A DNA stretch of 31,144 bases from a virus: IMG/VR virus record IMGVR_UViG_3300033571_003874, positions 1 through 31,144 of that record; one strand, given 5' to 3'. Position numbers and translations under genes: made by a program. The notes under the pieces were generated by a model. The model was not told where the DNA came from. It did no database searches and saw nothing but the letters and a program-made list of their open reading frames with translations. Of the stretch, positions 1,006-23,953 are shown in pieces. Positions within the stretch are counted from its first letter, which is position 1. Every line of letters begins with the position of its first letter.

Positions 1006-2616
1006 TCAGAGGGCTTCAACGTAATAGTCATCAGTCACCGAAATTGGGACTATGATGCCTTCATGGATGTGATTAGCGATTGCAAGGGACATCACGCAGT
1101 CATCGTGACATCCAGCATCATGCTCTAGCTTGCCAGTTTCAGTGACCACGAAGGTCATTAGCTCTCGGATGGTGGTCTTATCGTTTAGTTCAATCTCTCC
1201 ATCTCTGAGAGCAGCCCGTAGATCATCAATGACCATTGGACGTGACTTAGCGGTAGTCTTGAAGCCTAGGCTGATAGTCTCTTTGTCCGTGATCTTATCT
1301 TCGATCACGTCAAGGTGGACATTAGGATAGCTCAGGTACTTGTATAGGTTGTTGACTGTCAGGAGGCCGTGGTTGTTGGACTCGACGGCAATCTTAGCGA
1401 AATTATAGAGCTTACCTAGGTGATACAGGACGTAGGCAAAGTAGTCGGGATGATACTGACCACGCCAGACAGCCGCCTGACGCCTCTTGGAGTCTAGGAC
1501 TTGGGCAACCGACCAGTCACCATTCTGGACGCCCATGGCCACGTCAGCACCGATGTAATAGGTGTCGCCTGGGTCAATGGGGCGGTAGATCAGAAGCTCA
1601 CCACGGGGGTTCTCCTCCCACTCCATCTTCTCCCAATTTACCATATGGTCGCCCTGTAGAGCCATCCGGGAGTGAACGTCAGGGACAGCCTGAAGGCGGG
1701 CGTTGAGAGACTTGAGGTTGAACACCGGCCTACCAGAGGTCAGGAAGGCGTCATCTAGGATGGTGGGATATTCCTGATTCCATTGGTCGATGCCCGTCTG
1801 GGCGATCTTCCTGCGGCGGAACTGAAGCTGGTCGTTATCGAGGTCCCACTTCTCAGCAAGCTCCTGTTCTTCAGGGGTCCGCTCAAAGTTCTCAGGAGCC
1901 TCTACCCTGTAGCTATCATCCCAGAACCAGGGGAGGAAGCAGACATCATATCCGTTCTCACCCCTAAGGGCGCCCTGGGTCATCTCATAGAAGGGGCCTG
2001 TCACACCATTAGCCGTGGACTCAATGAAGACAGCAGTACCAGGGACATCAGGGATAGCCTGAAGGATGCCCGCTAGGTTCTCCTTAGCGAACCCAGGAGG
2101 CCACCAAGCCATCTCCGATAGGTGAGCAGTCGTGATCGTCTCACCACGGGCCACCGCCTCACCACCAGCCGTAGCAACCATGTAGGCGCTGTCCAGCTTG
2201 TCGAACACTAGCTCGGAGCGAGAGGAGTACTTGGTGTGGGGTCTGAGAATCTCAGGGACGTTCTCATGGAACCGCTTGGTCATATCAAACAGGGCGCGGG
2301 TTGACTCAGACTTATGAGTGACCACCAGGGCCTTCTGAGCGTTTCTCTGAGATACCCACCAGTACATCCATCCGCCTACAAAGGTGGACAGACCTAGCTG
2401 ACGTGCCTTGGGAATGATGATACGTACCCGTCCTGTAGAGCTAAGCTGCCTCTGGATCATCTCTAGGAGGTAGCTCTGGGCCTTATTAGGCTTGAACGGG
2501 ATGACCTCTGCTGTCTTGGTTCTGATCTTTAGAGCGCGGGGAGCGTAGTACTCAAAGTCATCCTTCAGGCGTTTCCGCACCTGTAGGATTTTCGATTGCT
2601 TCTCTTGCTCGTTCAT
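1006..2616 (-). CDS. terL: Terminase large subunit
   Basis: A 536-residue packaging motor: ATP-driven DNA translocation into the prohead plus cleavage of the concatemer. The ATPase domain shows a Walker-A-like KARQLGLST at residues 70-78 and a Walker-B-like HLSEMAW with Glu168. The C-terminal RNase H-fold nuclease region shows IGADVAMG (first acidic residue), IAVESNNHG and a final HDDCVMSLAIA. The length is normal for the family. It overlaps the upstream terminase small-subunit candidate by 59 bases, which suggests translational coupling, and is followed by the portal gene. ATG at 2616 is preceded by a weak GAGAG. The family is clear; the packaging type (cos, pac or direct terminal repeats) cannot be read from the window. 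Confidence 0.93.
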   Translation of the reverse strand: MNEQEKQSKILQVRKRLKDDFEYYAPRALKIRTKTAEVIPFKPNKAQSYLLEMIQRQLSSTGRVRIIIPKARQLGLSTFVGGWMYWWVSQRNAQKALVVTHKSESTRALFDMTKRFHENVPEILRPHTKYSSRSELVFDKLDSAYMVATAGGEAVARGETITTAHLSEMAWWPPGFAKENLAGILQAIPDVPGTAVFIESTANGVTGPFYEMTQGALRGENGYDVCFLPWFWDDSYRVEAPENFERTPEEQELAEKWDLDNDQLQFRRRKIAQTGIDQWNQEYPTILDDAFLTSGRPVFNLKSLNARLQAVPDVHSRMALQGDHMVNWEKMEWEENPRGELLIYRPIDPGDTYYIGADVAMGVQNGDWSVAQVLDSKRRQAAVWRGQYHPDYFAYVLYHLGKLYNFAKIAVESNNHGLLTVNNLYKYLSYPNVHLDVIEDKITDKETISLGFKTTAKSRPMVIDDLRAALRDGEIELNDKTTIRELMTFVVTETGKLEHDAGCHDDCVMSLAIANHIHEGIIVPISVTDDYYVEAL

Positions 2617-3268
2617 CTCTCAGTCGCTTGGGAATGTAGTTACCCTTCTCATCAATCCAGCCGAGGGCTTTGTAGCGTTCCCTCTTGGCCTTCTCGACAG
2701 CAGTACGACTACCCTGACCTGGGGCCTTCTTATGGACCTTCTCGACAGTGATCGTGGGCATCTCCTCCTCAGCCAACTGAAGCAGGAAGTCTTCTGCCTT
2801 CATGGTCACGTTGACCGACTGATTGAGGCTGGGGGCCTTGCTGTAGGTGTACTCAGCCAGGGTCTTCAGGGCATTGACCATCTGGCCTTGATTAAGGGAA
2901 CCGCTTCGGACGAGGACTTCCAGCATCCACAAAGGGTTCATCTCTAGGCCGGTCCTGGCCTGAAGGTCAGGGGCGAGGAACTTCGGGTTCTTAGCCGCTT
3001 CCTCTGCCGCCTTGGACGCTTCATCCAACCGGACTTGCATCTCCTGTTTAGTCATACCGCCTTTGTATTTCGTTTTACCTAAGCCGCCTGCGGGACGCCC
3101 TTGGGCGATCCACGTATGGACTAGCTCAGATGTTATGCTTCCGGGGGCGCCCGCGAGGGCGAACTTGGGCTTTGGTTTGGGTGGCTCCGGGGCTGGTTTC
3201 TCGAACCACTCCGTTATCAGGCGTCCCGTTCGGTCCACTTGCGGGGGCCGAGGATGGAATTGACTCAT
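2558..3268 (-). CDS. Probable terminase small subunit
   Basis: About 236 residues from ATG at 3268; a GTG at 3307 would add 13 residues, but its leading sequence looks unnatural. The centre (EMNPLWMLEVLVRSG, then NALKTLAEYTYSKAPSL) resembles the 'P-L-x-x-M-L ... AA-x-x-A-x-Y-x-H/S-K-x-P' helical segment seen in phage small terminase proteins, which bind the packaging site and recruit the large subunit. The N-terminus is Pro/Lys-rich and the C-terminus is basic (EKAKRERYKALGW, KRLRDERARE). Its position directly upstream of terL, overlapping it by 59 bases, supports the call. The start shares 143 bases with the preceding 102-residue gene in another frame. No ideal Shine-Dalgarno is visible at the ATG, so reinitiation from the overlapping gene is likely. 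Function inferred mostly from position. Confidence 0.6.
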   Translation of the reverse strand: MSQFHPRPPQVDRTGRLITEWFEKPAPEPPKPKPKFALAGAPGSITSELVHTWIAQGRPAGGLGKTKYKGGMTKQEMQVRLDEASKAAEEAAKNPKFLAPDLQARTGLEMNPLWMLEVLVRSGSLNQGQMVNALKTLAEYTYSKAPSLNQSVNVTMKAEDFLLQLAEEEMPTITVEKVHKKAPGQGSRTAVEKAKRERYKALGWIDEKGNYIPKRLRDERAREAIENPTGAETPEG

Positions 3269-3434
3269 AACGGTCCATAATCTTGATGAGGGTTTCAAAC
3301 TCCTCACCCCTCACTAGGGGAGGAGGGAAGTAGGCCTTCAATGCGTTAAAAAGGGAACGCCTATCGTCATCTGGGCTGGTGAGCCTGATGACAGCATCAA
3401 CTGCCAGCAAGGCGTCCTTGAATTGGGAGGACAT
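3126..3434 (-). CDS. Small protein with C-terminal AT-hook motif
   Basis: A 102-residue protein of unknown family. The first 55 residues look helical; a Ser/Pro/Gly-rich linker follows; the C-terminus ends in RPRGRPRKHNI, which contains the RGRPRK core of an AT-hook, a peptide that binds the minor groove of AT-rich DNA. The ATG at 3434 is three bases from a family-1 dyad, the same geometry as the tail gene starting at 14506. The last 143 bases overlap the next gene in another frame. Its place between the giant virion protein and the terminase candidate suggests a DNA-packaging or DNA-binding role, but this is inference. It could also be the true small terminase. Confidence 0.65.
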   Translation of the reverse strand: MSSQFKDALLAVDAVIRLTSPDDDRRSLFNALKAYFPPPLVRGEEFETLIKIMDRYESIPSSAPASGPNGTPDNGVVRETSPGATQTKAQVRPRGRPRKHNI

Positions 3435-3501: not shown

Positions 3502-6500
3502 TTAGCTTACTGCGGTTCGGATTTGCTTGGGATCAATGTTCCCAGCCTTACCCTTGGCAGGGATGACAATGAGGTTCCGAAGCTCAGCACGAGCCTCAGT
3601 CTCAATCGTCTTGTCCTGCTTCCTGGGCGAGTTAGCCTTGATCAGAGCCTTACGCTGCTCAAGCAGCATATCGTAGTCGGCCTGATACATCGCACCGATG
3701 ATCGGCCCCTTGGGGACCGCAGGACGGTGTTCTTCCGGCTTCAGGATCGGGATACCGTTCAGCTTCACCATCTGCTCAAACGGGTTGGGCATATCGACAA
3801 GCTCGGTCATGACACCAAGGACGTTATCAAGCCCGTTCTGAGCCTCCGAGGGATGGAACCCATGGGAGTCGTGGATCGGGTTGTAGTATTTGACGCCAGA
3901 ACGCTTAGCAGCCTCACGGAGGATGTAGGCATCGTGGGCGTGGGTGAAGTTTGCACTCAGCCCTCGTCCAGCCTCAGTCTTCTCAGAAACCACCGGCAGC
4001 ATGGTAGTGAAGTCACCCTTGGCGCCAGGAATCTTGAACTCCATCGCGTCATACTTAGCGACTTCATCCGACTGATAGCTGAAGACGATGCCATCAGGAG
4101 TCTGGTACTTGAGAGGACGATTACCGTTATCCCGACCCCACTCAGCGACATTCCTGAAGAAGTTCATGGCCCTGCGTAGGTTGGGGTACATGGACTCCAC
4201 GTTCTTGCGAACGGCAGAGGTCAGAGTGGTGGAGAAGGAGCGCAGAACAGGGTAGTCCATCGCCATCTTCTCAGTGGTGAAGGTGCCTGTAGTTCTCCAC
4301 TCGCCAGTCATATTATTGATCTGCTGCAAGGCCCACTGAGTACCGTCCTTGGCAACCCGGTACTTACGGTCGTCAAAGGCGAACTCGGTCCCTCCTGAGG
4401 TCTTCTTAACGTCCTTCCTAGACTGCTCAAAGAAGGCCGGATTGATCAAGGAGTAGTCCTTGACCAGCTTGCTGAGGACGCTATTGGAGGCGCCGCCAAT
4501 GGTGCTGTCATAGACGTACGTGGACACGCTGTTCTTGATGACATTACGCAGCCAACCCTTACCCTCATCCGTCTTGATGGCTTCACCAAGCTCAAACATC
4601 AGGCTGGTCTGGACCGCATTCACGGCAGGCTCCACGTAGATGTCAGCCGTACGCCGATCAGCAGGATCAACGCTAAGCTCGCTTGGGCGAGGCATCATAG
4701 AGGTTGCCTGAAGAACCGAAGGATCACTCAGGAATGCACCCATAAGCTGAAAGCTGTTGTTGTTAGCATCGAACTGAGCCACAGCATCAGTCTTCCAGTT
4801 GGCTGCAATGTCTGCCTGGACTTCAGGATTCTGAAGCAGCTTGGAAGGGTTCTTCTCCTTAGTCTTGGAGCGAGCCTTGGCAAACTCCACCATAGCCTTC
4901 GTATCAAGAGCCACGGCAATGGTCTGAAGCGGCCCCTCTTGGAACAGAGCTTCAATCTCAGCCACGTACTTGCCGTCCTTGGGGAACGGGTTCTCAGCCA
5001 GCTTCAGCAGCGTCGGGACGGCATCAAGGTAAGCCTTGACCCTATCATTCGTGCTGGCCTTGCCGTCAGGACCAACGAGATTGCCCCAGGACTGCCAGAG
5101 GAGCTTAAGCCCGTCCTGGCCAGGAGCAGCCTTATAGTTGGCCCTGGTCATAGCCTTCATGAAGTCGCCGCCCTGCGTGAAGGCAGAGGAGTTCCTCATG
5201 TACACTCGGCCACGGCTATCAGCATGAGCCTCTTGGTAGAGGATACCGTCCTTGAGGGTCGGAAGCTGCTCATCAAGGATTGCGAAGGCTCGGACACCAG
5301 ACTCATCAGCCCGCTTCCCTGCGCTGTTCTTGGGGTTCAGCGCATCTTCCACGGCTACGTTGTTGGTATCGCCAAGCTGTCCTTTGATCAGGTCGAACAG
5401 GCCGGTATTCAGGCCGGTGCCCATGTTCCTCATGTAGTTGAGGAAGTCGATCAGAGGAGTGGCCTGGGCCTTCTGCTCAGGACTGAACCCGTCGATGCCA
5501 GGAGAGATACCAGTCTGATACTTGTTCATCCCAGACAGAGGAGCCGGGGGAGTAGAGGCGTCAGGAATCTTTCCAACCCGATCATGGGCCTTAGCGATTT
5601 CCAGAAGCGAGTAAAAGCCCGTTTCTTTGTTGAACCGTAGCTGGATGTCCGACAGAGGCTTCTTGCTCTGACTCTTGACCTGACGACCATCCTTCTCGAA
5701 AGGCTTCACCTTAGGGGTGAAGACCGTCCCCTCCTTCTGAAGGTCCAGAATAGCCTGAGCCACCACAGGGGCAGCCTCAGCCTGTTCCAGCCCATAGCGG
5801 CCTGCATAGGCGTTGCTAAGGCTCAGGAAGGTGTGGAACTCGGTACCAGAGGACAGGATCAGGGCCTTCACCCTGTTCGTGATGCCTCCCTGGTTCTCAA
5901 AGGAAGCAATCGCAGATTCAACCTCGCCATACCTGGGAGCAAGCTCCTTGGCTCTGGCAAGCTGGACCTTCTCCTTGGCAACCTTAGCGACGATCCCACG
6001 GGCACGTTTCACGGTCCCACTCAGGACCTCCTTCACCTTCTTATCAAGGCTAGTAGGCTTTGGCGGGGCAGGGGGCGGAGTGGTGGGAGAAGTGGTAAGG
6101 TCCTTACCTTCCTCTACAGGGTCCTTGGTATCTTCATTGGTAGCAGCTTCAACGGTCGGGGCCGGGGCAGCCTTGGGGGCAGCTTCAGCCGTAGCAACGA
6201 CGCTCACGGTCGGGACAGTCTTAGCCAAGGCCGAAGCCAGGGCAGTCATAGCCTTGATCGCGGCAGCCAGGTCAGGATCGCTAGAGGTCTTCTGAGGAGC
6301 GGAGGCAGCCTCTTTTGCAGAGGGCTTATCGTCACCAGCTTCCACCAGATTACCGGCAATGCGCTGCGCAGTATCGTAGAACCCCGCCATAGCAGGGTCA
6401 TCGGCCATGCCTAGGTCACTCAGGGTTTCCATGTAGGCATCGAACATCGCCTCACGGTCAGACTTCAGCTTATCGCGGGAGTCCATCCGTTCCAGAGGAA

Positions 6501-8994
6501 TGATGACGCTATTGGCCTGGGCAATGCTCCAACCGGACTTCAGGAGACGGTTGCGAAGCTCCTGACGAACTTGCTGGGCAGACGTGCCCTTGGCATAGCG
6601 GTAGGAGCCACGGTTGGTGTAGGCCCCTGGGTCAGGGAGCGCGTCGTTGTCACCATTGAGCCACGCCACTTCAGAAGCCAGTAGCTCAGGAGACACACCC
6701 CAACGCTCGCCGCCAGGGACGGACCCTTCACGGGCGTTAAGGGTCTGAGTCTCAGCCTTTACAGTCCTGTATGCAGGCTCTCCGTCGAGAGTCCAGCCAT
6801 TCTTACGCTCAGCGTCGATACTCACGGCAAAGGGGTCGCCTTGTTCGTCATCGACGATAGCCATTTTACCGTTGTTAAGGACTTCAATGACTTTATAGGA
6901 GTTGCCGCTGTTGCCTTTCCAGACTTGACCGACCTTGTAGATTTCTTCTCGGGTCGTGGCCCCTTGGTTCACTTCAGCCTTGGCAGCCTCGACCTCCTCA
7001 TTGGACTTCGCAGCTTCCTCAGCCAGAGCAGCCTGCATGACATCATCAGCCTGGGCCTTGCTCAGCTTTCGCTCGGCAAGAGCCTGAGCAATCTCCATGA
7101 GACGACCACGGATGTTGCTCTGGTTGATCTTGTTGAGAGTCAGGACATCAGCGTACTTGGCAGATGCCTGGGTAATCGTGAGACGGCCAGCGGCAATCTC
7201 ATTGTTCAGGCGAGCAAGCTCGACACGCATCGTATCAAGCTGACCCCGAGTGATCTGGTTGGCTCGGGCAGCAGCCATACGCTCCTGAGCAGCCTGACGG
7301 CGTTCCTGAGTAGCTGCCAGGGATTCAGCCGCCTGGGCGTTACGAGCAGACTTCGCAGCCCGGTTCTCGTCACCCATCTCGGCGTTCTTCAGACGCTCCT
7401 CGTCGGCCTTCATACGAGCCAGGATAGAGGTAGCCTTAGCCTTGGCCTTAAGCTGCTCGCCAGTGATCGCCTCACCAGTCTGAGTGGCGTAAAGCTCAGC
7501 AGCGTTATTCCAGTACTGTTCATCAGCCTTGGACTGCTTAGCATCAGCAACGCGATCCAGGGCACGATCACCAGTGAACGGGGCGGGAGTCTGATCCTCA
7601 GCCGACCGGACGAAGTTATCGACCGGGCTGTACAGGCCAAGGCCACGCTCAATGGCACCAGCAGCCTTGTTCACAAGGATGCCACCACCAAGGGCAGCTA
7701 CGTTACCAATGCCGCCGATGGCCCTCTGGAAGGCCGAGGCATTACGTTCAGTAGGATCAAGGAATCGAGTGACCCGGCTAAGGGGTCCATAGGTAGCATT
7801 AGGCTGAAGGAATCGGTTCAGCTTGGAACGCTGACGGATGATGGAGGCAAGCTCCTGACCCTCAGCGGTATCGCCAAAAAGCTGTTGGAAGCGGTTGAAA
7901 TCTTCAGCGGACGGGTTGGTGTCCTGGCGGTTCAGACCCTTTCGGGTAAAGACAGCCAGGGTCTTCTCAGCATCCTGAGGATCGTCCATGGTCCGCGCCA
8001 GCTTGGCCAAGGCTGCCTGAGCGAGGCGCCCTTCAGCCAGAAGCTCAGCCTGAGTGTCCTGAATGGCCTGCATAGCGCCGCCATACTTGTCACCGCGTCC
8101 ACGGAGGTTCAGGTCAAGCTCGTTACCCTCAGGATCAGTCTGGTTCCTGATACGCCCCGCAAGGCGGATGTCATCGTCATCAGAGACTTCCTTAGGCGCA
8201 GGCTCAGGGCGGTTCTGGAAACGCTCTACGAGGCGGCTGGGGACAGCTACAGAGGTACCAGTACCGGCGCCGATCAGACCCTCACCGATGGCCTGCTTAG
8301 GGCTGATGTCCAGGCCCTTATCAGTGGCAGCAGTTTCACCAGTCTGCTCCACCACGCTCTGACCGGCCTCAGTGGCAAACTCTTTACCCACACGCCCGAA
8401 GACGCCGCCAGGGCTAAGGAGCTTACCGAGGCCGATAGACTCAAGGGCGCCTGAGGCGCCAGCCGTAGCGATGGCCCAAGCCCAATCGGTCTTGTCAGGG
8501 GTATCCCTACCACTGTTCTTAGCTCGCTCTACGGCAATCGGGCCAACAAGCTGGTAAGCCTGGGTGAGGGCGGGGCCAGCAAAGGCACCAGCGGCGGCAC
8601 CAGCAGCGGTGCCTACACCGGGGACCACGCTACCAATACCGGCACCAAGAGCCGCGCCAGAGCCACGGGCGGCTAGACTCTGACCAAGCTGCGGGAACTG
8701 TTCTACAACCGCCTCAGCAAAGGAGGACCAGCCGAAGCCTTCACCATCCTTGTTGATAAATCGTTCGCCGGGGGACTGGTAGCCCTGGGGGACCGAAGGC
8801 TGGGCGCTGCGTAGTGCCCCGGCCACACCGGGCATACCAAGCTGCTCAGAGGTTACTGCACTCTGTTCAAGGATGTTTCGGGCACCAGACCGGAGGGCAT
8901 TAGCCCCCCGATCCAGAAGACCACCTTGAGGCTGCTGAGGTTGACCAGCGAGGCTATCAAGGTCAACGAGGCTGTCGAGGTCAATCTCAGCCAT
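3502..8994 (-). CDS. Giant virion protein with C-terminal single-subunit RNA polymerase domain (N4 vRNAP-like)
   Basis: An 1830-residue protein in the late/structural operon, between the terminase genes and two ejection-type proteins. Residues 105-150 are Gly/Ala-rich and hydrophobic, a second such segment lies near 428-455, and residues about 500-700 are Ala/Glu/Lys-rich helices, typical of internal virion proteins ejected with the DNA. A Pro/Ala/Thr linker occupies about 905-985. After it come the motifs of T7-superfamily RNA polymerases, in order and at T7-like spacing: DSRGR (Asp1259-Arg1263), motif A FDANNNSFQLMGA (Asp1409), motif B RNVIKNSVSTYVYD (Arg1483, Lys1487, Tyr1495; the R+4 and R+12 spacing of T7 Arg627/Lys631/Tyr639), and motif C IHDSHGFHP (Asp1709). 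The roughly 845-residue C-terminal part is the size of a whole T7 polymerase. The best parallel is the N4 virion RNA polymerase, which is far longer and has its polymerase in the middle. All catalytic residues are present, so I infer an active enzyme. It could instead be a degenerate domain kept for structure. Confidence 0.82.
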   Translation of the reverse strand: MAEIDLDSLVDLDSLAGQPQQPQGGLLDRGANALRSGARNILEQSAVTSEQLGMPGVAGALRSAQPSVPQGYQSPGERFINKDGEGFGWSSFAEAVVEQFPQLGQSLAARGSGAALGAGIGSVVPGVGTAAGAAAGAFAGPALTQAYQLVGPIAVERAKNSGRDTPDKTDWAWAIATAGASGALESIGLGKLLSPGGVFGRVGKEFATEAGQSVVEQTGETAATDKGLDISPKQAIGEGLIGAGTGTSVAVPSRLVERFQNRPEPAPKEVSDDDDIRLAGRIRNQTDPEGNELDLNLRGRGDKYGGAMQAIQDTQAELLAEGRLAQAALAKLARTMDDPQDAEKTLAVFTRKGLNRQDTNPSAEDFNRFQQLFGDTAEGQELASIIRQRSKLNRFLQPNATYGPLSRVTRFLDPTERNASAFQRAIGGIGNVAALGGGILVNKAAGAIERGLGLYSPVDNFVRSAEDQTPAPFTGDRALDRVADAKQSKADEQYWNNAAELYATQTGEAITGEQLKAKAKATSILARMKADEERLKNAEMGDENRAAKSARNAQAAESLAATQERRQAAQERMAAARANQITRGQLDTMRVELARLNNEIAAGRLTITQASAKYADVLTLNKINQSNIRGRLMEIAQALAERKLSKAQADDVMQAALAEEAAKSNEEVEAAKAEVNQGATTREEIYKVGQVWKGNSGNSYKVIEVLNNGKMAIVDDEQGDPFAVSIDAERKNGWTLDGEPAYRTVKAETQTLNAREGSVPGGERWGVSPELLASEVAWLNGDNDALPDPGAYTNRGSYRYAKGTSAQQVRQELRNRLLKSGWSIAQANSVIIPLERMDSRDKLKSDREAMFDAYMETLSDLGMADDPAMAGFYDTAQRIAGNLVEAGDDKPSAKEAASAPQKTSSDPDLAAAIKAMTALASALAKTVPTVSVVATAEAAPKAAPAPTVEAATNEDTKDPVEEGKDLTTSPTTPPPAPPKPTSLDKKVKEVLSGTVKRARGIVAKVAKEKVQLARAKELAPRYGEVESAIASFENQGGITNRVKALILSSGTEFHTFLSLSNAYAGRYGLEQAEAAPVVAQAILDLQKEGTVFTPKVKPFEKDGRQVKSQSKKPLSDIQLRFNKETGFYSLLEIAKAHDRVGKIPDASTPPAPLSGMNKYQTGISPGIDGFSPEQKAQATPLIDFLNYMRNMGTGLNTGLFDLIKGQLGDTNNVAVEDALNPKNSAGKRADESGVRAFAILDEQLPTLKDGILYQEAHADSRGRVYMRNSSAFTQGGDFMKAMTRANYKAAPGQDGLKLLWQSWGNLVGPDGKASTNDRVKAYLDAVPTLLKLAENPFPKDGKYVAEIEALFQEGPLQTIAVALDTKAMVEFAKARSKTKEKNPSKLLQNPEVQADIAANWKTDAVAQFDANNNSFQLMGAFLSDPSVLQATSMMPRPSELSVDPADRRTADIYVEPAVNAVQTSLMFELGEAIKTDEGKGWLRNVIKNSVSTYVYDSTIGGASNSVLSKLVKDYSLINPAFFEQSRKDVKKTSGGTEFAFDDRKYRVAKDGTQWALQQINNMTGEWRTTGTFTTEKMAMDYPVLRSFSTTLTSAVRKNVESMYPNLRRAMNFFRNVAEWGRDNGNRPLKYQTPDGIVFSYQSDEVAKYDAMEFKIPGAKGDFTTMLPVVSEKTEAGRGLSANFTHAHDAYILREAAKRSGVKYYNPIHDSHGFHPSEAQNGLDNVLGVMTELVDMPNPFEQMVKLNGIPILKPEEHRPAVPKGPIIGAMYQADYDMLLEQRKALIKANSPRKQDKTIETEARAELRNLIVIPAKGKAGNIDPKQIRTAVS
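6727..6740. promoter_or_regulatory. Degenerate family-1 dyad inside the giant virion gene
   Basis: TTCACGGGCGTTAA: one perfect CGTTAA arm and a damaged other arm, flanked by ACCC and GGGT. It is read in a different frame from the other intragenic copies, so it may be a chance match. Confidence 0.35.
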
Positions 8995-9005
8995 TAATTA
9001 CTCCA

Positions 9006-11195
9006 TTATTGAGAGCGAGAGGCAGCGAGTTGCTTCCACTCCTTACCTGATTTCACGGTGCCATTGGGACTGGCGTAATACTTATTGTCGTCCATGGAGG
9101 ACGGGTCAATGCGGCCTTGGACCTTGATAGGAGCCTGCTGAGAGCCTTCAGTACCACCGCCTGTAGAGCCTGTAGAAGCCCCAGGAGACGGCTGAGAAGT
9201 CTGACCGATGTAGGCGTCACCCACAGGCGTAAACCGCTCAGGGAGGCTCCTACGGCCCCCTGCAAGGTCGCCAAGATAGGCAGCACCAGGACCAGCACCA
9301 GCGATGATCGGGAGAAGGGACTGAGCGCGGATGGAGCTACGACGCTGCACCATGTCAGGCGACTCACCGAAGCGAGGCATGAACATGCTTGCATAACGCT
9401 GCCACTCGTCCGCGTTGATCTGGGCGCCAGATTCACGGCGAGCCACGGCGTTGATGTAAGCCAGGGCAGAGACGGCGTATTCCTTCTGATCGTCAGGGAT
9501 AGCGAGGTTGGCGATCTGGGTAGGACTAATAGGCCCCTTGCTGGCAATCCATTCGCTGACTGCGGTCGTCAGCTTAGTAGGATCAAAGCCGGGCTTACCT
9601 TCCAGAGCCATCAGCCTACGCTGAGCCATGACGCCATTCAGACCGAAGCCGTAGTTCTTGCCGTCAGACTCCCGCTTGAACTCAAAGACAGGGACATCCA
9701 CGCCGCCAATGTTGGTGACTGCAACGGCGTTGGTGATGTCACCAGCACCGCGCTCGGCACTCTCGTTCTCACCCAAGCCAGCAAAGCGCATGTCGCGCGT
9801 ACCAGTGACTTGAATGGCAGGAACCCAGCGACCATCAGCGTTCTGCATGAGGGGTTCGCCATTGACCATGCGGCCAATACCGACACGCTCACGACGATTG
9901 GAGCCTTCGCCTTCCCACCAGCGGACGTTGATGCCTCGACCGTACTTGGTCTGATCCAGAGCATCCTTCTCACGGGAGAGGGCACCATAGCCAGACATCA
10001 AGGAGCGATCACGGGCACCGGCCTCAGTACGACGCTGATTGAGATACTCAGCCGTCAGCTTACCGCCAGCAGCCAGACCTTCAGGGATGTTCTTACCGGA
10101 CAGGATGCCAGTCCCCATGCGGAACATGATTTCCCCCAGGTCCAGACCACGGCCTCGCTCATCCTCAATCTGAGAGAGAAGAGACTGAAGACGTTCCCTG
10201 TAGGGATTCACAGGCTCCCCGGTTTCGGCGGGCCTCTGGGAATCAGGGGTCTGATTAGGAGTTCCCTCTTTAACGCCCGTTAAAGCTCCGGCCTGACCAA
10301 CGCCAAACCTAGATCGCATCTGCTGGACAGCATCAGCGACCGTACGGACGTTGCCTTGCTCATCCTTGAAGATGTTCCCGTTCTGAGCGATGGCCTGCTG
10401 AGAGACTACCGTGGAGACGGGTGCATTGGGGTTCGTAGCTGCTGCCTGGGCCATCTTGGAGAACCCATCGACACCAAGGAAGTGCATCCCAAGGAGCGTC
10501 TCATTGCTCCACGGAACGCCACGACGCTGAGCCTCACCCTGGTAGTACCGGGTGGACAGGTCCATGGCCTTATCCTGCACCTGAGGGTTCCGTTTGAACT
10601 CCTCCCAATCGGGAAGCCCTTCCTGCGGGAACATCGTCCTCAGAGTGGCATAGTGACCGGGGGTGATCTGATAGCGGCCAAAGGCGCCAGAGCCAGCACC
10701 ATTGGGCGTGAAGTATGGGTCGCCTCTGACTGCACCAGTTTCAAACCTAGACACCACCGAACGGGCATCGCTGAACGGATCGGTAGGAGTAGCAAAGGCT
10801 TGCTGTACCGGGGAAGACCCAGGAGGGACTGGACGAGAGCTTACTTCTTGCGCTTGAACAGGCTGCGGAGACGCCTGGGGAGGAACCGGCGGAACGACAC
10901 TCGGGAGAGGAGTTTCCGTAGGCTCGGTAGGTGGGGGAGAAGCCGGGGAGCGATCCTGAGGAGCGACTCCAAGACCCTCTGGAACGCCGGGAGGCGGGGG
11001 GATAGGCGTGAAGATAGGGTTGGAAACACCCTGCGGAACAGGAGCCGGATTGGATGGTACGGCTGGCTGAGGAGCGACAGGAGCAGGGTTATATAGTGGA
11101 TTAAACGGGATTGAGAGGGAGCCTGCGGCGGGACCATCTTCAGCCTCCGGTATAGGTTCATAGCGCCCCGTAAGGGGATTGATAAAATAGTTCAT
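9006..11195 (-). CDS. Internal virion/ejection protein with lysozyme-like domain
   Basis: About 729 residues from ATG at 11195, preceded by AGAGGTGG; a GTG two codons earlier is less likely. Residues 24-140 are a long Pro-rich linker. Residues about 142-250 look like a lysozyme/lytic-transglycosylase fold: SRFETGAVRGDP with candidate catalytic Glu152, then SGAFGRYQITP (171-178), the Gly-x-x-Gln signature after the catalytic glutamate, then a helical end (LLGMHFLGVDGF). Such domains in podoviral ejection proteins cut peptidoglycan so the genome can pass. The remaining 480 residues are Gly/Asn-rich and not recognised. It lies between the 363-residue ejection-type protein and the giant polymerase-like protein, consistent with a three-protein ejection set like T7 gp14/15/16. 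The enzyme class is inferred from motifs only. Confidence 0.72.
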   Translation of the reverse strand: MNYFINPLTGRYEPIPEAEDGPAAGSLSIPFNPLYNPAPVAPQPAVPSNPAPVPQGVSNPIFTPIPPPPGVPEGLGVAPQDRSPASPPPTEPTETPLPSVVPPVPPQASPQPVQAQEVSSRPVPPGSSPVQQAFATPTDPFSDARSVVSRFETGAVRGDPYFTPNGAGSGAFGRYQITPGHYATLRTMFPQEGLPDWEEFKRNPQVQDKAMDLSTRYYQGEAQRRGVPWSNETLLGMHFLGVDGFSKMAQAAATNPNAPVSTVVSQQAIAQNGNIFKDEQGNVRTVADAVQQMRSRFGVGQAGALTGVKEGTPNQTPDSQRPAETGEPVNPYRERLQSLLSQIEDERGRGLDLGEIMFRMGTGILSGKNIPEGLAAGGKLTAEYLNQRRTEAGARDRSLMSGYGALSREKDALDQTKYGRGINVRWWEGEGSNRRERVGIGRMVNGEPLMQNADGRWVPAIQVTGTRDMRFAGLGENESAERGAGDITNAVAVTNIGGVDVPVFEFKRESDGKNYGFGLNGVMAQRRLMALEGKPGFDPTKLTTAVSEWIASKGPISPTQIANLAIPDDQKEYAVSALAYINAVARRESGAQINADEWQRYASMFMPRFGESPDMVQRRSSIRAQSLLPIIAGAGPGAAYLGDLAGGRRSLPERFTPVGDAYIGQTSQPSPGASTGSTGGGTEGSQQAPIKVQGRIDPSSMDDNKYYASPNGTVKSGKEWKQLAASRSQ
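10270..10283. promoter_or_regulatory. Family-1 operator-like dyad, copy 3 (intragenic)
   Basis: TTAACGCCCGTTAA with CT before and AG after, inside the coding region of the lysozyme-like virion protein. In that leftward gene it reads Leu-Thr-Gly-Val-Lys. Confidence 0.7.
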
Positions 11196-11204
11196 GACCA
11201 CCTC

Positions 11205-12296
11205 TTACCAGAGCCCACCAATAGTGAACGGATCAAGGTTGGCAGACTTAAGAGGAGCAGAACCCCATCCACCGAACGGGTCGTAACCAGCCATACGAGC
11301 AAGGCCGAACATCTGGGCACCAGCACCAAGACCTCCCTGCACACCAGCAGCGATAGGATTGCGGTTCTGGAAGGTGGTGGATTCTACGTTGTTCCCAAAC
11401 TGCTGACCGCCAACGATCTTCATGTATCGGGCAGCCAAATCCATATCAGCCGTACGGGCGTACTCGTTACCCTGAATAGCGTTGTCCAGTTCTGCCTGAG
11501 CAAGCGCCCTCTGCTGATTGCCTACGTCAAGCTGGCCCTGGATGCCTGCATTCTGAGCCGCAAGACCGCCAGTGATAAGATCAGCGCCAACCTTAGTAGC
11601 ACCAAGGCTCTGGTTATTGGCTGCCAGGGCCGCGCTCATGCCTGTGGTGTTCTGCTGATTGGCAAGACCCAGGCCGGTGTTGAACAGGTTCCCACGGACG
11701 CCAGAGGCGATGTCCGCAGCACGGTCCTGGGCGGCATTCGTCAGCAGGGCCTCAGTCACACCAGCGCGGGTGCTATTCATGTTGCCAGAACCCACGGCAG
11801 AGGCGTTGTTCTGGGCTATGCCCGTCTGAAGATTACGGTTCACGTCCCTCAGCGATGCGTCAATCACACCATCGGCGTAGGGATTGTTGGCGTAAGCTCC
11901 TGCGGCAGCAATGGTACGGCCAGTGGGGTCGCTCATCGCCCGATCATAGATGGCGTTGGCGTTACCAGTGACGTTGCCGAAGTTGGCTACCCCAGACCAG
12001 CCAGAGTTGGTCAGGCCCGCCCCAGCAGCTTCAGCGGTGTTGGACCAGTTGCCCATCCGATTCCAACCACCAGTGAGGTTATCGTTCCCCCCGGCGACGA
12101 AATCACCCTTATATCTTCCTAGATTGTTGGCGTCATACCAAGCTGAATCAGCCCGTTTGAAGCCTTCATGAAGATAGGGAGCCTGATAGGACCACGGGGA
12201 ATTAGAACTGGACTGGCTCTGCCCGTCGCTAGACGACATAGCACCACCAATGGCGCTAATAGCAGAGGCGCCTAGAATTGCGGCTTCGATGCCCAT
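11205..12296 (-). CDS. Probable internal virion (DNA ejection) protein
   Basis: A 363-residue protein starting at ATG 12296 with a good AAGGAG ten bases upstream. The first 20 residues are hydrophobic (EAAILGASAISAIGGAMSS), the next part Ser/Gln-rich, and the body is Ala/Gly/Asn-rich with many NN and QN pairs (AQNNASAVGSGNMNSTRAG, LANQQNTTGMSAALAANNQ). This low-complexity, N-terminally hydrophobic design is common in podoviral ejection proteins that line the ejection channel; the family cannot be named from sequence alone. The stop codon is nine bases from the start of the lysozyme-like gene downstream, so the two are probably co-translated. No enzymatic motif is visible. Confidence 0.6.
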   Translation of the reverse strand: MGIEAAILGASAISAIGGAMSSSDGQSQSSSNSPWSYQAPYLHEGFKRADSAWYDANNLGRYKGDFVAGGNDNLTGGWNRMGNWSNTAEAAGAGLTNSGWSGVANFGNVTGNANAIYDRAMSDPTGRTIAAAGAYANNPYADGVIDASLRDVNRNLQTGIAQNNASAVGSGNMNSTRAGVTEALLTNAAQDRAADIASGVRGNLFNTGLGLANQQNTTGMSAALAANNQSLGATKVGADLITGGLAAQNAGIQGQLDVGNQQRALAQAELDNAIQGNEYARTADMDLAARYMKIVGGQQFGNNVESTTFQNRNPIAAGVQGGLGAGAQMFGLARMAGYDPFGGWGSAPLKSANLDPFTIGGLW

Positions 12297-12666: not shown

Positions 12667-12887
12667 CCGTAGAATCCATCACCGCCCCCAGGGTTCCAGG
12701 GAGCTTTGGCATAGACAACCAGGCCCTCCCTGGGGTTCTCAGGAGCAGCCTGATAGGAAGCCGAAGACCTCTCCACTAGCTCGTTGACCAGGGTAGAGAG
12801 CTTGCGTAGCTCCTGATAAACCCACATCTGAGCAGACTCAGGGCTACTTGGAGGAGAGCTTACGGTGTATCCGGTAGGCTTGCTCAT
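12633..12887 (-). CDS. Small virion-associated protein, unknown
   Basis: An 84-residue protein. The N-terminal half is Ser/Pro-rich then helical (ESAQMWVYQELRKLSTLVNEL). The C-terminal half (EGLVVYAKAPWNPGGGDGF then YGWDGTSWIKLN) is a Trp/Gly-rich beta segment seen in many small phage structural proteins encoded near tail genes. ATG at 12887 overlaps the stop of the 540-residue tail gene by four bases (ATGA), a typical coupling signal. Function unknown; a tail or head accessory role is inferred from position. Confidence 0.6.
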   Translation of the reverse strand: MSKPTGYTVSSPPSSPESAQMWVYQELRKLSTLVNELVERSSASYQAAPENPREGLVVYAKAPWNPGGGDGFYGWDGTSWIKLN

Positions 12888-14506
12888 TTGATGCTCAGCC
12901 TCCGAATATCCACGTCATAGCCAGACAGGTAATACCCACCGCCAGCAGGAAAGTTGAAGCCAGTAGAGAGGAATCTTCCGTTGGTCCGGGTATCGACCTT
13001 GTACTGAGTCTTAGGATCAAACGGGATAGGAGTCTCAAAGGAGACAACGCTATCTGGGTTCTCACTTCTACCGAAGGCTACAGAGAAGCCTGAGGACGAA
13101 TTAGCCTGAACCAGGGGGTATAGCGAGGCGATGAACTTACGAGCATCCAGGGCCATACCCAGAGACTCCAAAGTGATGCCGGATCGGGTCACGTAGCCAT
13201 TGCCTGAAAGCCCTGTGACTGACGGCTTTGAGATTTTCGGTAGGTTGGGATCATCAAGACCCAGGACCCTACTCTCAGATACGACAGTACCAGACTTGAC
13301 TGAGCTTAAGAGGACATGCCGGGTGAAGGTGTCCTCCTGTTCCGCGTAGGTGCCGCCGATGCCTTCGTAGCTGATGGATGCCGTGGCGTAGGACAGCTTG
13401 GAATCCACGTTGGCCATCGTCATCGAGGAGATGTTTGGAACGTCTAGGAAGGTCCAAGTGTCCGAGGCATAGTTATAGACAGCAGCCTCATTGCAGTAGG
13501 TGGTACCTGGGAACAGAACCTCAGAGATGGTCGTGGGGTAGCAGAAGAAGACCGAGGTAAGGGTAGGGGAGTGGAATGTGAAGCAGAACTTAGACTTGGA
13601 CTGATTGATCCTGTCAAAGATGAATCTGCGTACCCGATTGTCAGCTATGGACCGCTTGGAGATACCATCATTTACGTAGATGTCTCTCTGGCCAAATACA
13701 AAGTGCCTACCCTGGACTTCTACAAAGCAGTTGGCAGACATCACCCCATCATCAGCAAAGAGCTTCCTGAAGGAGAAGACCAGAGGAGCGCCAATGTACT
13801 CCATCAGGAAGGCTTCCCGATTGGAGTAGATGACGAACTCGTTCTTCAAAGGACCACCATCCACTAGCTGTCCAGTAGCCTCAGTGATGACATTCTCACC
13901 AGCAAGGGAGGACAGGAGGGTGGTATCCCAATCAGGGGGAGTGGACCCCGAGGAGGTAGCATTGGACCACTTGACCATCGTGGGATAGTCAGACGCCCCC
14001 TTGGTGACAGACAAGGCAATACCAAAGTCCTTGAAGGACCTGAAGGCCCTGGCCCTCCAAGAAGCATCCCAAGCAGGGACAGGCTTCATCTGAGGGGTCA
14101 AGTCATCATAGTAGTAGGGGACAAAATCAGGACGGTTGACGTAAAGGATGCCCCCAAGCAGGGTAGTCGTATAAGGCTCGTCAGAGATAGACGCAGCAGC
14201 AGCAGGATTGATATTGGTCAGAGTGTCATTGACCAGGGACCTGAATCTAAAGTCTCTGGTGCCGATGATGATAGGGTCAAACCCAGATACAGACTCAGCA
14301 GTAGCCAGGAGAACCGGGGGTTCTGCAAGGCTATCCACTGAGGCAATATTACTGATGTTCCTAAGGACGGGACCAGAGGTTACTCGATTACCCTGGAAAA
14401 GAACATTCCTCCCGTCCGACCAAGCACCTACAGGAAGGTCGAACGGGGCAAGGTCCTTGATGATCCCAAACTTCCCTAGGTCCCTGACAGGAACGGGAGA
14501 TGCCAT
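12884..14506 (-). CDS. Large tail/virion structural protein
   Basis: A 540-residue beta-rich protein. Its start (PVPVRDLGKFGIIKDLAPFDLPVG, then AWSDGRNVLFQGNRV) is characteristic of a podoviral tail protein family often annotated as structural or DNA-stabilising (P22 gp10-like). Repeated Thr/Ser-rich strands such as FVIYSNREAFLMEYIGAPL and YNYASDTWTFLDVPN suggest a beta-propeller-like body. ATG at 14506 lies three bases from a family-1 dyad, with no strong Shine-Dalgarno between, so the dyad occupies the place of the ribosome-binding site. It lies directly after the tail-collar gene, and its end overlaps the next gene. The structural class is confident; the precise position in the tail is not. 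Confidence 0.65.
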   Translation of the reverse strand: MASPVPVRDLGKFGIIKDLAPFDLPVGAWSDGRNVLFQGNRVTSGPVLRNISNIASVDSLAEPPVLLATAESVSGFDPIIIGTRDFRFRSLVNDTLTNINPAAAASISDEPYTTTLLGGILYVNRPDFVPYYYDDLTPQMKPVPAWDASWRARAFRSFKDFGIALSVTKGASDYPTMVKWSNATSSGSTPPDWDTTLLSSLAGENVITEATGQLVDGGPLKNEFVIYSNREAFLMEYIGAPLVFSFRKLFADDGVMSANCFVEVQGRHFVFGQRDIYVNDGISKRSIADNRVRRFIFDRINQSKSKFCFTFHSPTLTSVFFCYPTTISEVLFPGTTYCNEAAVYNYASDTWTFLDVPNISSMTMANVDSKLSYATASISYEGIGGTYAEQEDTFTRHVLLSSVKSGTVVSESRVLGLDDPNLPKISKPSVTGLSGNGYVTRSGITLESLGMALDARKFIASLYPLVQANSSSGFSVAFGRSENPDSVVSFETPIPFDPKTQYKVDTRTNGRFLSTGFNFPAGGGYYLSGYDVDIRRLSIK

Positions 14507-14524: not shown

Positions 14525-15214
14525 TTAGTACTTCATGATGAACATGAGGGCGTAATACGGGGGCTGAACATTGGTCAGCGTATGGGTATGGGCACCATCA
14601 TCAGAGATAGTGTGAGAGTGGGTCTGACCCCCACCAGTACTCTGAATGGTAATACCCGTAGTGGCAGTAGACGTAGAGACGTTTGAGCCAAAGCCATTAG
14701 ACAAGCTGGCAAAGCCAGAGCCTACGGTACCACCGTTGGCATAGGTATGAGCATGGCCTGGGTCAGTCACAGTATGGGTATGAGAGGGAATCTGGTTGGT
14801 GCTGAGAGCAGTCCCACCAGTATTGGCCGTATGGTTGTGGGTACCGTTGGAGCTAGTTGTATAGCTCGTAGAACCACCAGTAGAACCCTGAGCATAAGTA
14901 GCCCCAGAAGCTACAATGAACCTATCACGGAGGTCAGGAGCTACAATGGTCCCTGCACCGTCAGTCCTAGTGAGAGTCTGACCACTACAGGCAGCAAAGC
15001 CATCAGGGATAGCACCAGCAGTAGGGGACCACATGATGATGCTGCCAATAGGCATGATCTTAGCAAAGTAGATCGGCTTGGTAGCATCAGGGAAGGTAGT
15101 CTTCAGAGTGGACTTGATCAGACGGATATGATCATCGGTCTGACTCAGGAAGTCACTGGAAGTAGGGTTGGAGGTATTCAGGTCTGAAATATGAGTGGCA
15201 GTCTCAAGGCCCAT
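14525..15214 (-). CDS. Tail-collar domain fibre protein
   Basis: A 229-residue protein with a phage tail-collar domain: PIGSIIMWSPTAGAIPDGFA at about residues 55-75, then CSGQTLTR and APDLRDRFIVASG. It is followed by a His-rich region with many H-x-H pairs (GTHNHTANT, IPSHTHTVTDPGHAHT, THSHTISDDGAHTHT), which in T4 gp12-like fibres hold metal ions along the trimer axis. The end, NVQPPYYALMFIMKY, is the usual terminus of this family. It probably forms a short tail fibre or receptor-binding tip. The ATG at 15214 has no good Shine-Dalgarno; a 9-bp perfect hairpin lies just upstream. It is short for a fibre, so it may attach to a longer protein. Confidence 0.88.
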   Translation of the reverse strand: MGLETATHISDLNTSNPTSSDFLSQTDDHIRLIKSTLKTTFPDATKPIYFAKIMPIGSIIMWSPTAGAIPDGFAACSGQTLTRTDGAGTIVAPDLRDRFIVASGATYAQGSTGGSTSYTTSSNGTHNHTANTGGTALSTNQIPSHTHTVTDPGHAHTYANGGTVGSGFASLSNGFGSNVSTSTATTGITIQSTGGGQTHSHTISDDGAHTHTLTNVQPPYYALMFIMKY

Positions 15215-18022: not shown

Positions 18023-18032
18023 AACACAACCC

Positions 18033-18343: not shown

Positions 18344-18362
18344 AACAAGAGAGGACTGAACA

Positions 18363-21520: not shown

Positions 21521-23953
21521 ATGCGACAGAATCATGCCTTCCTCTTGAGTTTCGAGACTGAATCTCCGAATACGACCGTACGTGATGAAAGGACGAAAGC
21601 CCGAATGATTCTGCCGGTTCACGTAATGGAAGCAGACGCCCTTTATGTTCAGGCTCGGTGGGAGCAGGACATGGCCACGAGTGGCTATGAACGAACCATG
21701 GAATCTGAGCAGGCCAATGCTCAGCACTCGCAATCTGCAACTATTCTCCGCAAGAAACTCCACAAGCGACTCTTAACGTCCGTTAAAGGTTACTACGAGG
21801 GGACCCTTCAGGGTTCCAACAAGGGTGTTCCTAGCGAAACCCTGCTCCCTCTCATGATGTGCAGCCCGGATCAGGTGACTGCTGCCATCACGTCCTGGCT
21901 TGTCTCCTACCCCTTCGTCGTGGGTAAGGAGGCGTCTCATCCCAGGGTCATGTCTGTAACCTCTCAGAGCGTCGTCCTTGGTAATCTCATTGTGGACACC
22001 GCCAGCTTCAATCGGGTCCTCAAGAGTGTTGAGACTTCTACCTCCTTCAAGCGGCTTATGGATCGCTCTAAGAAGTCCAGAAGTGCCAAGTACGAACTCC
22101 ACGCTCTCTACAAGGAGTGGCGTGGGGACTACTCTAGCGAAGCTGCTTTAAAGATCGGGGGTATCTGCATCGAACTCGCCCTAGGCGCCTTCCCGGACTA
22201 CCTTGAGCGTAAGCTGGTCCTGCATAGCCCTTCGGGGAAGAAGCTGGCCAACACTCATAGCGTGATCCTCAAGACACAGGCTTGGTGGGACCTGTATCAA
22301 GCCACGGCTGACACAGTAGCAATCTCCTCGCCTACCCTACTGCCTACCCTGGTTCCTCCTAAGCCTTGGAAGGAGAACGCCATTGGTGAAGCATCGGACG
22401 GAGGTTACTACTTCCTTAAGAGGCCCCTGATCAGAAACGTCTCAAAGAGTGTGAAAACGCTCTTTCAACTTTCAACACTGTCCAAGAAAGCTCTAAATCA
22501 TGCTCAAAATACACAGTGGGTACTGAATCAGCGGCTACTGGATGTTGCTCGGAAGCTCAGTGATTCCAAGTCCTGTCCAGTGATTCCCACGCTGTCCGAC
22601 AACCCCTCTACTGAGGAGGTCGGAAAGTACACGGAGTTCACAAGGACTCTGGGGGCTGCTGAGGCTGTAGCTGACAAGGAAGCCATCTACTTCCCCAAGA
22701 GCTATGACTGGCGCCTGAGGCTCTATGACATCCCGAATGACCTGAAGCCTCAGGGCAATGATTTGTCCAGGGGTCTACTCAGGTTTGCTCATGGGGTGCC
22801 TCTGACCTTTAACGGGCGTTATTGGTTGGCTGTCCACCTGGGCAATCTTCTGGGTAAGGACAAGGCTCAGTACTCTGATCGCATCAAGGCTGTAGAGGAT
22901 AGCAAGGACCTTCTTGAGAGGGTCGTAGCTGATCCTCTGAAGAACCTTGAGTGGACAGAGATGGAGGACCCTTGGCAGTTCCTAGCTGCTGCTATGGATT
23001 GGGTTGCGGTCAACTCCTCCGATAAGGCTCTGAGCTACGTTCCGGTCAGCCTGGACGGCTCCTGCTCTGGGATGCAGCACTTCTCTATGCTTACCAGGGA
23101 CCATAAGGGAGCCTTAGCCACCAACTGTACCAGCGATCCCAACATCCACGACCTCTACCTCACCGTCGCCAAGCGGGTACAATCTCGTGTGGAGTACGAT
23201 GCGGCCAGGGGTGACAAGCTGGGGCTGCTCTGGTGGGAAACCATTAGTCAGCAGAAGCTCGCTCGTGGGGTCTGCAAGAGGGCTGTCATGACCGTGCCCT
23301 ACGGGGTGACGGATCGGGGCATCACTCAGTTTATGATCGCTGACAAGCACGTTGCAACCTTCCCTAAGGAATACCGATGGACCGCCGCTACCTACATGAC
23401 CACCCTGATCAGGGCTGCCCTGGACGATACCATGTCCAATGCTAGGGCTGCTCAGGCGTACATCAACTCGGTGGCCTACAGCTTGGCTCTCAAGCAGAAG
23501 CCTCTGGCTTGGCGTACGCCTACGGGGAGTGTGATCGCTCAGGGGTACAAGAACCTGATTGAGAAGCGTGTGAAGACTCCTACGGGGACACTGACCCTCC
23601 ATGTGGAGCCTGATAACGCCACCTATGACTCCCGCAGGGCTAAGCTGGCTACGTCTCCCAATGTCATCCATAGCCTCGACGCTGCTCACCTTCAGATGGT
23701 GGTCAGTGATCTGGCTGATGCTGGCATCAATGACACGTTCCTCGTGCATGACTCCTTCGGGGTTCACGCCGAGCATGTCCCTGTCCTCAGGGATATCCTC
23801 AGGAAGAACCTTCACACGATCTACAAGGGTAACGCCTTGGAGGAGTGGAAGGCCAGCGTTGAGGAACTCTCTGGCGAGAAGCTGCCGGAAGTCCCCCAGC
23901 TTGGGGATTGGGATGTGTCCGAGGTACTGAAGGCCGAGTACCTGTTCGCCTAA
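21521..23953 (+). CDS. T7-like single-subunit DNA-dependent RNA polymerase
   Basis: An 810-residue polymerase (T7: 883). Motif A VSLDGSCSGMQHFS (Asp512), motif B RGVCKRAVMTVPYG (Arg582, Lys586, Tyr594) and motif C LVHDSFG (Asp744) are complete, and the protein ends in EYLFA like T7's DFAFA foot. The DxxGR motif is altered: YDWRLRLYD, with Leu399 where Gly is usual (Asp396, Arg400 kept). It should transcribe from the GTCCGG...CTATAG promoters in this window. The ATG at 21521 has no close ribosome-binding site; in-frame ATGs at 21605 (AAAGGA 11 bases upstream) or 21671 (GGGAG upstream) are alternatives, the last probably too short at the N-terminus. A family-1 dyad lies at 21773 and a weak one at 22809. 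Its neighbour downstream is the SSB gene, as in T7 order. Confidence 0.96.
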   Translation: MRQNHAFLLSFETESPNTTVRDERTKARMILPVHVMEADALYVQARWEQDMATSGYERTMESEQANAQHSQSATILRKKLHKRLLTSVKGYYEGTLQGSNKGVPSETLLPLMMCSPDQVTAAITSWLVSYPFVVGKEASHPRVMSVTSQSVVLGNLIVDTASFNRVLKSVETSTSFKRLMDRSKKSRSAKYELHALYKEWRGDYSSEAALKIGGICIELALGAFPDYLERKLVLHSPSGKKLANTHSVILKTQAWWDLYQATADTVAISSPTLLPTLVPPKPWKENAIGEASDGGYYFLKRPLIRNVSKSVKTLFQLSTLSKKALNHAQNTQWVLNQRLLDVARKLSDSKSCPVIPTLSDNPSTEEVGKYTEFTRTLGAAEAVADKEAIYFPKSYDWRLRLYDIPNDLKPQGNDLSRGLLRFAHGVPLTFNGRYWLAVHLGNLLGKDKAQYSDRIKAVEDSKDLLERVVADPLKNLEWTEMEDPWQFLAAAMDWVAVNSSDKALSYVPVSLDGSCSGMQHFSMLTRDHKGALATNCTSDPNIHDLYLTVAKRVQSRVEYDAARGDKLGLLWWETISQQKLARGVCKRAVMTVPYGVTDRGITQFMIADKHVATFPKEYRWTAATYMTTLIRAALDDTMSNARAAQAYINSVAYSLALKQKPLAWRTPTGSVIAQGYKNLIEKRVKTPTGTLTLHVEPDNATYDSRRAKLATSPNVIHSLDAAHLQMVVSDLADAGINDTFLVHDSFGVHAEHVPVLRDILRKNLHTIYKGNALEEWKASVEELSGEKLPEVPQLGDWDVSEVLKAEYLFA
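21773..21786. promoter_or_regulatory. Family-1 operator-like dyad, copy 12 (intragenic)
   Basis: TTAACGTCCGTTAA then AAGG, near the 5' end of the RNA polymerase gene; read Leu-Thr-Ser-Val-Lys-Gly. A repressor bound here could block elongation into the gene. Confidence 0.65.
22809..22822. promoter_or_regulatory. Weak family-1 dyad in the RNA polymerase gene
   Basis: TTAACGGGCGTTAT: one base breaks the right arm. It is read in another frame (Phe-Asn-Gly-Arg-Tyr-Trp), which a perfect site would interrupt with a stop codon. It may be coincidental. Confidence 0.35.

Follow-up and report, generated by a model that had tools for sequence, protein, structure and literature searches.

This phage probably injects its own RNA polymerase together with its DNA, as is suggested by a complete T7-type polymerase carried on a giant protein that is encoded among the DNA-injection genes. 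The window (the whole 31,144-nucleotide stretch of viral DNA analyzed here) encodes this protein, termed P0001, whose C-terminal ~850 residues are confirmed to be a single-subunit RNA polymerase (RNAP). The favored reading, to which a probability of roughly 0.7 is assigned, is that in P0001 an ejection protein carries a virion RNA polymerase as its C-terminal cargo, and that this protein would be packaged, ejected and catalytically active, would be specific for early genes and would then hand over to a second polymerase. The observed basis consists of the polymerase fold and motifs, their conservation, the gene's place within the ejection operon, a cysteine-free composition and the presence of a two-polymerase set in three phages. 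P0001 is laid out as follows:

3502..8994, minus strand: P0001, giant ejection protein and putative virion RNA polymerase, 1830 aa
7477..8994, minus strand: N-terminal ejection-type module, residues ~1-506 (phmmer matches to the L050 and L062 giants)
6046..6189, minus strand: Pro/Ala-rich linker, residues ~936-983 (from sequence)
3715..6057, minus strand: single-subunit RNA polymerase domain, residues ~980-1760 (PF00940, phrog_414, AlphaFold2, Foldseek)
5206..5220, minus strand: DxxGR motif, DSRGR 1259-1263 (only R1263 invariant)
4768..4770, minus strand: motif A aspartate D1409 (invariant in all rows of alignment A7; on a beta strand of the model)
4510..4548, minus strand: motif B, R1483, K1487 and Y1495 (invariant in all A7 rows; on one helix of the model)
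3865..3873, minus strand: motif C, H1708-D1709-S1710 (H and D invariant in A7; at a beta-hairpin turn of the model)

The frame runs uninterrupted on the minus strand from window position 3502 to 8994 (1830 residues, 0 stops), and a sequence scan finds within it neither a cysteine nor an HExxH motif. The original prediction had read the DSRGR, D1409, R1483/K1487/Y1495 and H1708-D1709-S1710 residues from the letters alone, and all lie at those positions in the translation; the T7-like motif B spacing of +4 and +12, the Pro/Ala linker and the C-terminal location of the polymerase (the last ~850 residues) are likewise confirmed. The identity of this part as a single-subunit polymerase, which had also been claimed to be complete, is supported by PF00940, phrog_414, the AlphaFold2 model and the Foldseek matches. 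In a Pfam scan, PF00940 matches residues 1292-1719 with 35.5 bits (E=6.9e-9; the curated cut-off is 22 bits) and, among the PHROG profiles, phrog_414 ('RNA polymerase') matches residues 1247-1747 with E=6.6e-31. By tblastn the polymerase domain matches 458 of 50,697 phage records; nearly all of the matches listed are either annotated phage RNA polymerases (the great majority, including phiKMV-like ones) or unannotated or hypothetical genes at a place where relatives of those phages have an annotated RNA polymerase. The best match of the P0001 model in a viral structure library, UniProt A0A6J5NLE6, is 55% identical over the polymerase region and is named 'DNA-directed RNA polymerase, phage-type' (uncultured Caudovirales phage); it is evidently the same kind of giant as P0001, and no study of it was found among the papers searched. 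The expectation that plain annotation would miss P0001 is refuted by the plain Pfam match and by this named relative; indeed, because Pfam, PHROG and tblastn all detect the domain, the claim that a specialised method is needed is too strong for P0001. A sequence search of the PDB with P0001 gives 0 matches, and the giants of two prophages described below (L123 and L124) go unreported by the same Pfam search that detects P0001.

The AlphaFold2 model of the polymerase domain, for which the input alignment contained 16 sequences, has a mean pLDDT of 69.8 and a pTM of 0.64; it replaced an earlier model (pLDDT 51) based on an alignment without the prophage homologues. Within the model, D1409 falls in a strand (model residues 447-451), R1483, K1487 and Y1495 share one long helix (model residues 517-536), and H1708-D1709 occupy a beta-hairpin turn (model residues 745-748/751-754); motifs A, B and C thus map to the palm and finger elements where they are expected. 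The palm/fingers arrangement, on which the original prediction had staked its fold check, is present in the model as part of a palm/fingers/thumb fold, and every one of the best 50 Foldseek matches listed against the PDB is a T7 or mitochondrial RNA polymerase (E ~1e-15, probability 1.00). The TM-scores against solved RNA polymerases, 0.39-0.45, are modest, which is attributed to a multi-domain model in which some of the chain has low confidence.

P0001 belongs to a leftward late operon ordered as tail fibre, particle protein, P0005, P0003, P0001, P0004 and terminase large subunit, and a separate polymerase gene, P0002, lies on the rightward arm:

14525..15214, minus strand: tail/tail-fibre protein near the operon head (phrog_5795, E=3e-32)
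12884..14506, minus strand: virion structural ('particle') protein, 540 aa (phrog_3287, E=4e-87)
11205..12296, minus strand: P0005, 'DNA ejection protein', 363 aa (phrog_4287, E=1e-14)
9006..11201, minus strand: P0003, 731 aa, cysteine-free, adjoining the giant; probable second ejection protein, from position and composition
2558..3307, minus strand: P0004, 249 aa, between the giant and the terminase, with L123 and L124 homologues at the same place; possible small terminase, from position
1006..2616, minus strand: terminase large subunit (phrog_2, E=3e-30), directly downstream of the ejection genes
21521..23953, plus strand: P0002, separate T7-like RNA polymerase, 810 aa (PF00940, 285.7 bits; phrog_414, E=1.7e-154)

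The PHROG matches to the terminase, the DNA ejection protein and the particle protein uphold the predicted setting among head and ejection genes. Homologues of P0005 are present in genome loci L123-L129; P0003 has no family match in profile searches, and a lytic transglycosylase-like stretch suspected within it is unsupported by profile comparison. P0001, P0003 and P0005 together contain 0 cysteines in 2924 residues, versus 63 in 5680 for the other window proteins (p=7e-15); the N4 virion RNA polymerase (vRNAP) contains 0 in 3500. The rightward arm encodes a phage integrase, an HTH regulator, P0002, a gp2.5-like SSB, an endonuclease, a primase/helicase (phrog_239, E=8e-188), a DNA polymerase and an exonuclease. 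Other features of the window are a 206-aa gene (17380-18000) with 18 overlapping copies of a 15-bp tandem repeat that encode a five-residue repeat protein; an inverted repeat (18954-19063), whose 37-nt arms are 92% complementary and separated by 36 nt, in the gap that precedes the HTH regulator gene; and a predicted minus-strand tRNA-Thr (CGT; 21249-21323) between the integrase and P0002, which is a possible attachment site.

Relatives of P0001 were reached only via neighbouring genes, namely those of the particle protein and the terminase. Against phage records, tblastn finds no match either to full-length P0001 or to one of the type II giants described below; viral contigs scanned with P0001 alone, or with just its polymerase part, yield 0 relatives; and three loci from exact motif-pattern scans were judged to be chance matches. 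The terminase large subunit has 154 viral relatives and, as a query, leads to 80 viral loci and 13 bacterial-genome loci. Two of the loci, L123 (a prophage of Xinfangfangia sp. CPCC 101601) and L124 (a prophage in a Paracoccus MAG), encode full-length P0001 homologues of 1707 and 1715 aa, respectively, at the same position, so that the whole architecture, N-terminal module and polymerase, is kept in two Rhodobacterales prophages. The polymerase part alone matches these giants with E=5e-73 and 6e-51, and the three homologues (termed here type I) are 25-31% identical; wider sampling around the Xinfangfangia host, with 397 genomes at family level and 385 at class level, gives 0 further clear type I members.

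In three-way alignments of the window, L123 and L124 proteins, R1263, D1409, R1483, K1487, Y1495, H1685, H1708, D1709 and S1710 are invariant; because 19% of the 751 shared columns are invariant, the chance that all eight tested residues (8/8; those just named, S1710 aside) would be so is ~2e-6. Likewise, the motif A aspartate, R/K/Y of motif B and HD of motif C are ordered and invariant in 16/16 rows of alignment A7. The residue after the motif B tyrosine is D or A, versus G in T7. At the DxxGR position the window reads DSRGR, L123 reads GANLR and L124 reads DDRGR, and these differences imply that this motif is under weaker constraint. Conservation of the motif residues, which had been proposed as a check, holds for the catalytic residues in both prophages but only in part for DxxGR, which is degenerate in L123.

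Just upstream of the terminase large-subunit gene, the terminase relatives encode giants in two size classes (~750-1100 and ~1580-1970 aa). Over its first ~500 residues, P0001 matches giants such as those of L050 (phmmer E 6.5e-46, query 28-506) and L062 (E 3e-38, query 29-465), in which no polymerase is recognisable; homology of P0001 to the third ejection protein (~1000 aa) in Caballeronia-type relatives was also considered and is unsupported by profile comparison. At least eight giants, termed type II (L072, L086, L099, L103, L104, L110, L114 and L115; 1599-1937 aa, no cysteine), have an HEIFH zincin motif (8/8 examined) followed by a diverged C-terminal RNA polymerase with the motifs DRLR (at DxxGR), WFDGTSSSYQL and HDAF; that of L086 matches PF00940 (E=3.8e-8) and phrog_414 (E=1.3e-9), and three longer type II contigs also encode a T7-like RNA polymerase of ~840 aa. 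In the same ejection slot, the L049 giant (3598-9519) has FtsK gamma (E 3e-18) and methyltransferase domains and the L071 giant (4542-9293) has DUF7178 (E 9e-28). A tree splits the type I and type II polymerases from the T7-like polymerases and N4 RNAPII with branch support 99/97, to be read with a long-branch warning.

Such swaps of cargo within one slot suggest that ejection proteins serve as general protein-delivery chassis. A broader reading, which covers Rhodobacterales prophages and marine metagenome phages and is held tentatively, at somewhat less than even odds, is that the third ejection protein of terminase-related phages and prophages combines a conserved N-terminal entry module with a C-terminal cargo that can be exchanged and is either missing or one of three kinds, namely a T7-type RNA polymerase (type I), a diverged RNA polymerase together with a zincin (type II), or FtsK-gamma with a methyltransferase. 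The window lineage would then represent a two-polymerase cascade in an integrase-bearing phage, possibly free of the host RNA polymerase, that comes from a T7-like lineage outside the Schitoviridae and in which the ejected polymerase acts first, followed by a T7-like polymerase with its own dispersed promoters.

P0002, which is absent from the original prediction, is likely the non-virion polymerase. Because both prophages (L123 and L124) likewise encode a separate T7-like RNA polymerase--in the L123 genome ~25 kb from the giant on the same contig--the giant is not the sole polymerase of the phage, and an N4-like division of labour between early and later transcription becomes plausible with this second enzyme. 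In these two prophages the companion polymerases (loci L138 and L140) are only 601-633 aa long and lack most of the N-terminal domain.

Two families of sites within the window are candidates for regulatory elements. TTAACGCCCGTTAA-like sites occur ~17 times (22 strand-wise matches vs 0.04 expected), at 983-1008, 3431, 12605, 14503, 15820, 18033, 18862, 19462, 21773, 24027, 26063, 27810, 29149, 30509 and elsewhere, several of them 25-40 bp upstream of gene starts on the rightward arm; in L123, L124 and L126 they do not rank among the commonest repeats. Their asymmetric form, TTAAC-N5-TTAAAGG, has T3-promoter-like spacing and agrees with the T3 promoter at 14/23 positions (the 99th percentile for random 25-mers is 12). 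This spacing and the upstream placement disfavour the idea that these dispersed palindromes are hairpin promoters for the virion polymerase and make P0002 promoters or repressor sites likelier. CAGTAACCACTGAAC, an incomplete palindrome with the core CAGT-AACC-ACTG, occurs in three perfect copies (18011-18025, 18332-18346 and 20633-20647) just upstream of rightward genes; these are candidates for operators bound by a repressor or for early promoters, which might be used by the virion polymerase. No early promoters of P0001 were identified.

Of the competing explanations, the one that survives best, though it is unlikely, is that the polymerase-fold domain is catalytically dead or only structural, having been captured as a DNA-binding plug or scaffold within the ejected complex. 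The erosion of DxxGR, seen in L123 as well as among the type II giants, is consistent with this, as are the rarity and fast evolution of the domain (25-31% identity between homologues). However, type I invariably keeps both metal-binding aspartates, R/K/Y of motif B and the histidine of motif C, type II too retains the catalytic aspartates, the motif B residues and HD, and the DxxGR glycine is lost also from the companion polymerases of all three type I phages (DWRLR in P0002, DFRTR and DFRTR in the prophages).

It is quite improbable that P0001 is instead an unpackaged, intracellular late polymerase that is expressed from the late operon and merely fused to a large N-terminal region. Fusion to another protein need not imply a virion part, but here the N-terminal module is common to polymerase-free giants of the terminase-linked ejection slot, the absence of cysteine matches the adjacent ejection proteins, and P0002 already provides a dedicated second polymerase.

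The inferred job, the order of N-terminal domain (NTD) and then polymerase, the lack of cysteine and the location beside ejection genes would also fit a truncated vRNAP of the N4 (Schitoviridae) family that was acquired from an N4-like phage. Sequence comparison makes this very improbable: N4 gp50 matches phrog_2206, the N4 vRNAP family, with E=0, whereas a scan at E<=0.01 gives no match between P0001 and this family, and HHalign relates the three-member type I family to seven Schitoviridae vRNAPs with E=0.006 and a probability of 6%, versus 2e-23 to T7-like RNA polymerases. P0001 also lacks both a C-terminal domain and the HExxH zincin. Of the predicted comparison with the N4 vRNAP, the likeness in place within the ejection operon and the differences in length (about half) and in the C-terminal position of the polymerase stand; in sequence P0001 is nearer to the T7-like polymerases; the P0001 polymerase and the N4 vRNAP may nevertheless share a very old common origin. 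Least probable of all is that the ejected polymerase mainly makes primers or pulls in DNA at entry, early expression being secondary: single-subunit RNA polymerases are able to prime replication and transcription can pull DNA into the cell (as for T7 and N4), but the phage has its own primase/helicase and nothing specific in the sequence points to such a role.

For the virion-polymerase reading, the following sequence of events is envisaged, with packaging, entry, activity and timing drawn from the genomic setting and from analogy with N4 (PMC12633501, PMC7650795) and P23-45 (PMC10770324). P0001 would be packaged in the head alongside the cysteine-free P0003 and P0005 and would exit via the tail, either before the DNA or together with it; the N-terminal half of the protein would help to build a conduit through the envelope, while its C-terminal T7-type polymerase would refold in the cytoplasm and transcribe the first-entering genes, including that of P0002, without the host RNA polymerase; P0002 would then take over transcription. 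Counting against this reading are the degenerate DxxGR of L123 and of type II (DRLR), the D or A that follows the motif B tyrosine, the low TM-scores and the lack of identified promoters.

Single-subunit virion RNA polymerases have so far been regarded as a hallmark of N4-like phages (PMC7650795; PMC5512222), which are much larger. A shorter, C-terminal version, present both in a T7-like phage with an integrase and in the prophages of named bacteria, would mean that this strategy arises or persists outside the Schitoviridae. It would also offer a smaller system for studying the threading of a folded enzyme through a tail and its subsequent refolding, and would widen the search for virion polymerases to giants labelled as hypothetical or internal virion proteins.

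Several known systems bear comparison. Wittmann et al. regard the vRNAP as a mark of N4-like phages, which have three RNA polymerase genes, with RNAPII formed by two chains, and genomes of 59-80 kb (PMC7650795); the window record is partial (31 kb), so that genome sizes are not comparable. In the N4 vRNAP a ~1000-residue NTD is followed by the polymerase (PMC12633501). Iyer et al. (2017) describe polyvalent proteins, multi-domain phage giants that are delivered into the cell, with N4-like RNA polymerase modules among their domains; they report these modules from N4-like phages only and almost always together with a metallopeptidase (PMC5512222). The StenR_269 paper proposes vRNAPs in Zobellviridae-like phages from size, helix content and absence of cysteine only (PMC10747016). 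Thermus phage P23-45 has a virion RNA polymerase fused to its tail tape measure plus a non-virion one (PMC10770324). No paper describing a C-terminal RNA polymerase on an ejection protein was found, subscription literature being outside the search.

Like N4 gp50, P0001 is a single-subunit polymerase within a cysteine-free giant of the ejection operon, with a ~1000-residue region preceding the polymerase and a second phage RNA polymerase encoded in the same genome. Unlike the N4 vRNAP (3500 aa), it has 1830 residues, a C-terminal polymerase, no C-terminal domain and no zincin (HExxH); its companion is one chain rather than a gp15/gp16 pair, two polymerase genes are found rather than three, and an integrase and a replication module of T7-like type are present in the phage. 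With T7 gp1 and the phiKMV-like polymerases (PF00940/phrog_414) it shares the fold and catalytic motifs A, B and C; unlike them, it is very diverged (~15-25% identity), is encoded by a late-operon gene, sits behind a ~960-residue ejection-protein region and is additional to the phage's ordinary T7-like polymerase. P23-45 resembles it in fusing a virion polymerase to a structural or ejected giant, provided that P0001 is indeed packaged, and in having a separate non-virion enzyme, but the P23-45 polymerases are double-psi-beta-barrel enzymes related to cellular RNA polymerases, the virion one being N-terminal in the tape measure of a long-tailed phage; that of P0001 is T7-type and C-terminal on a podovirus-type ejection protein. 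Type II giants resemble polyvalent proteins in pairing a zincin motif with an RNA polymerase; P0001, without HExxH, differs from these combinations of metallopeptidase and effector domains. The best reading of these likenesses and differences is that P0001 works in the manner of the N4 vRNAP while belonging to a separate, T7-like lineage.
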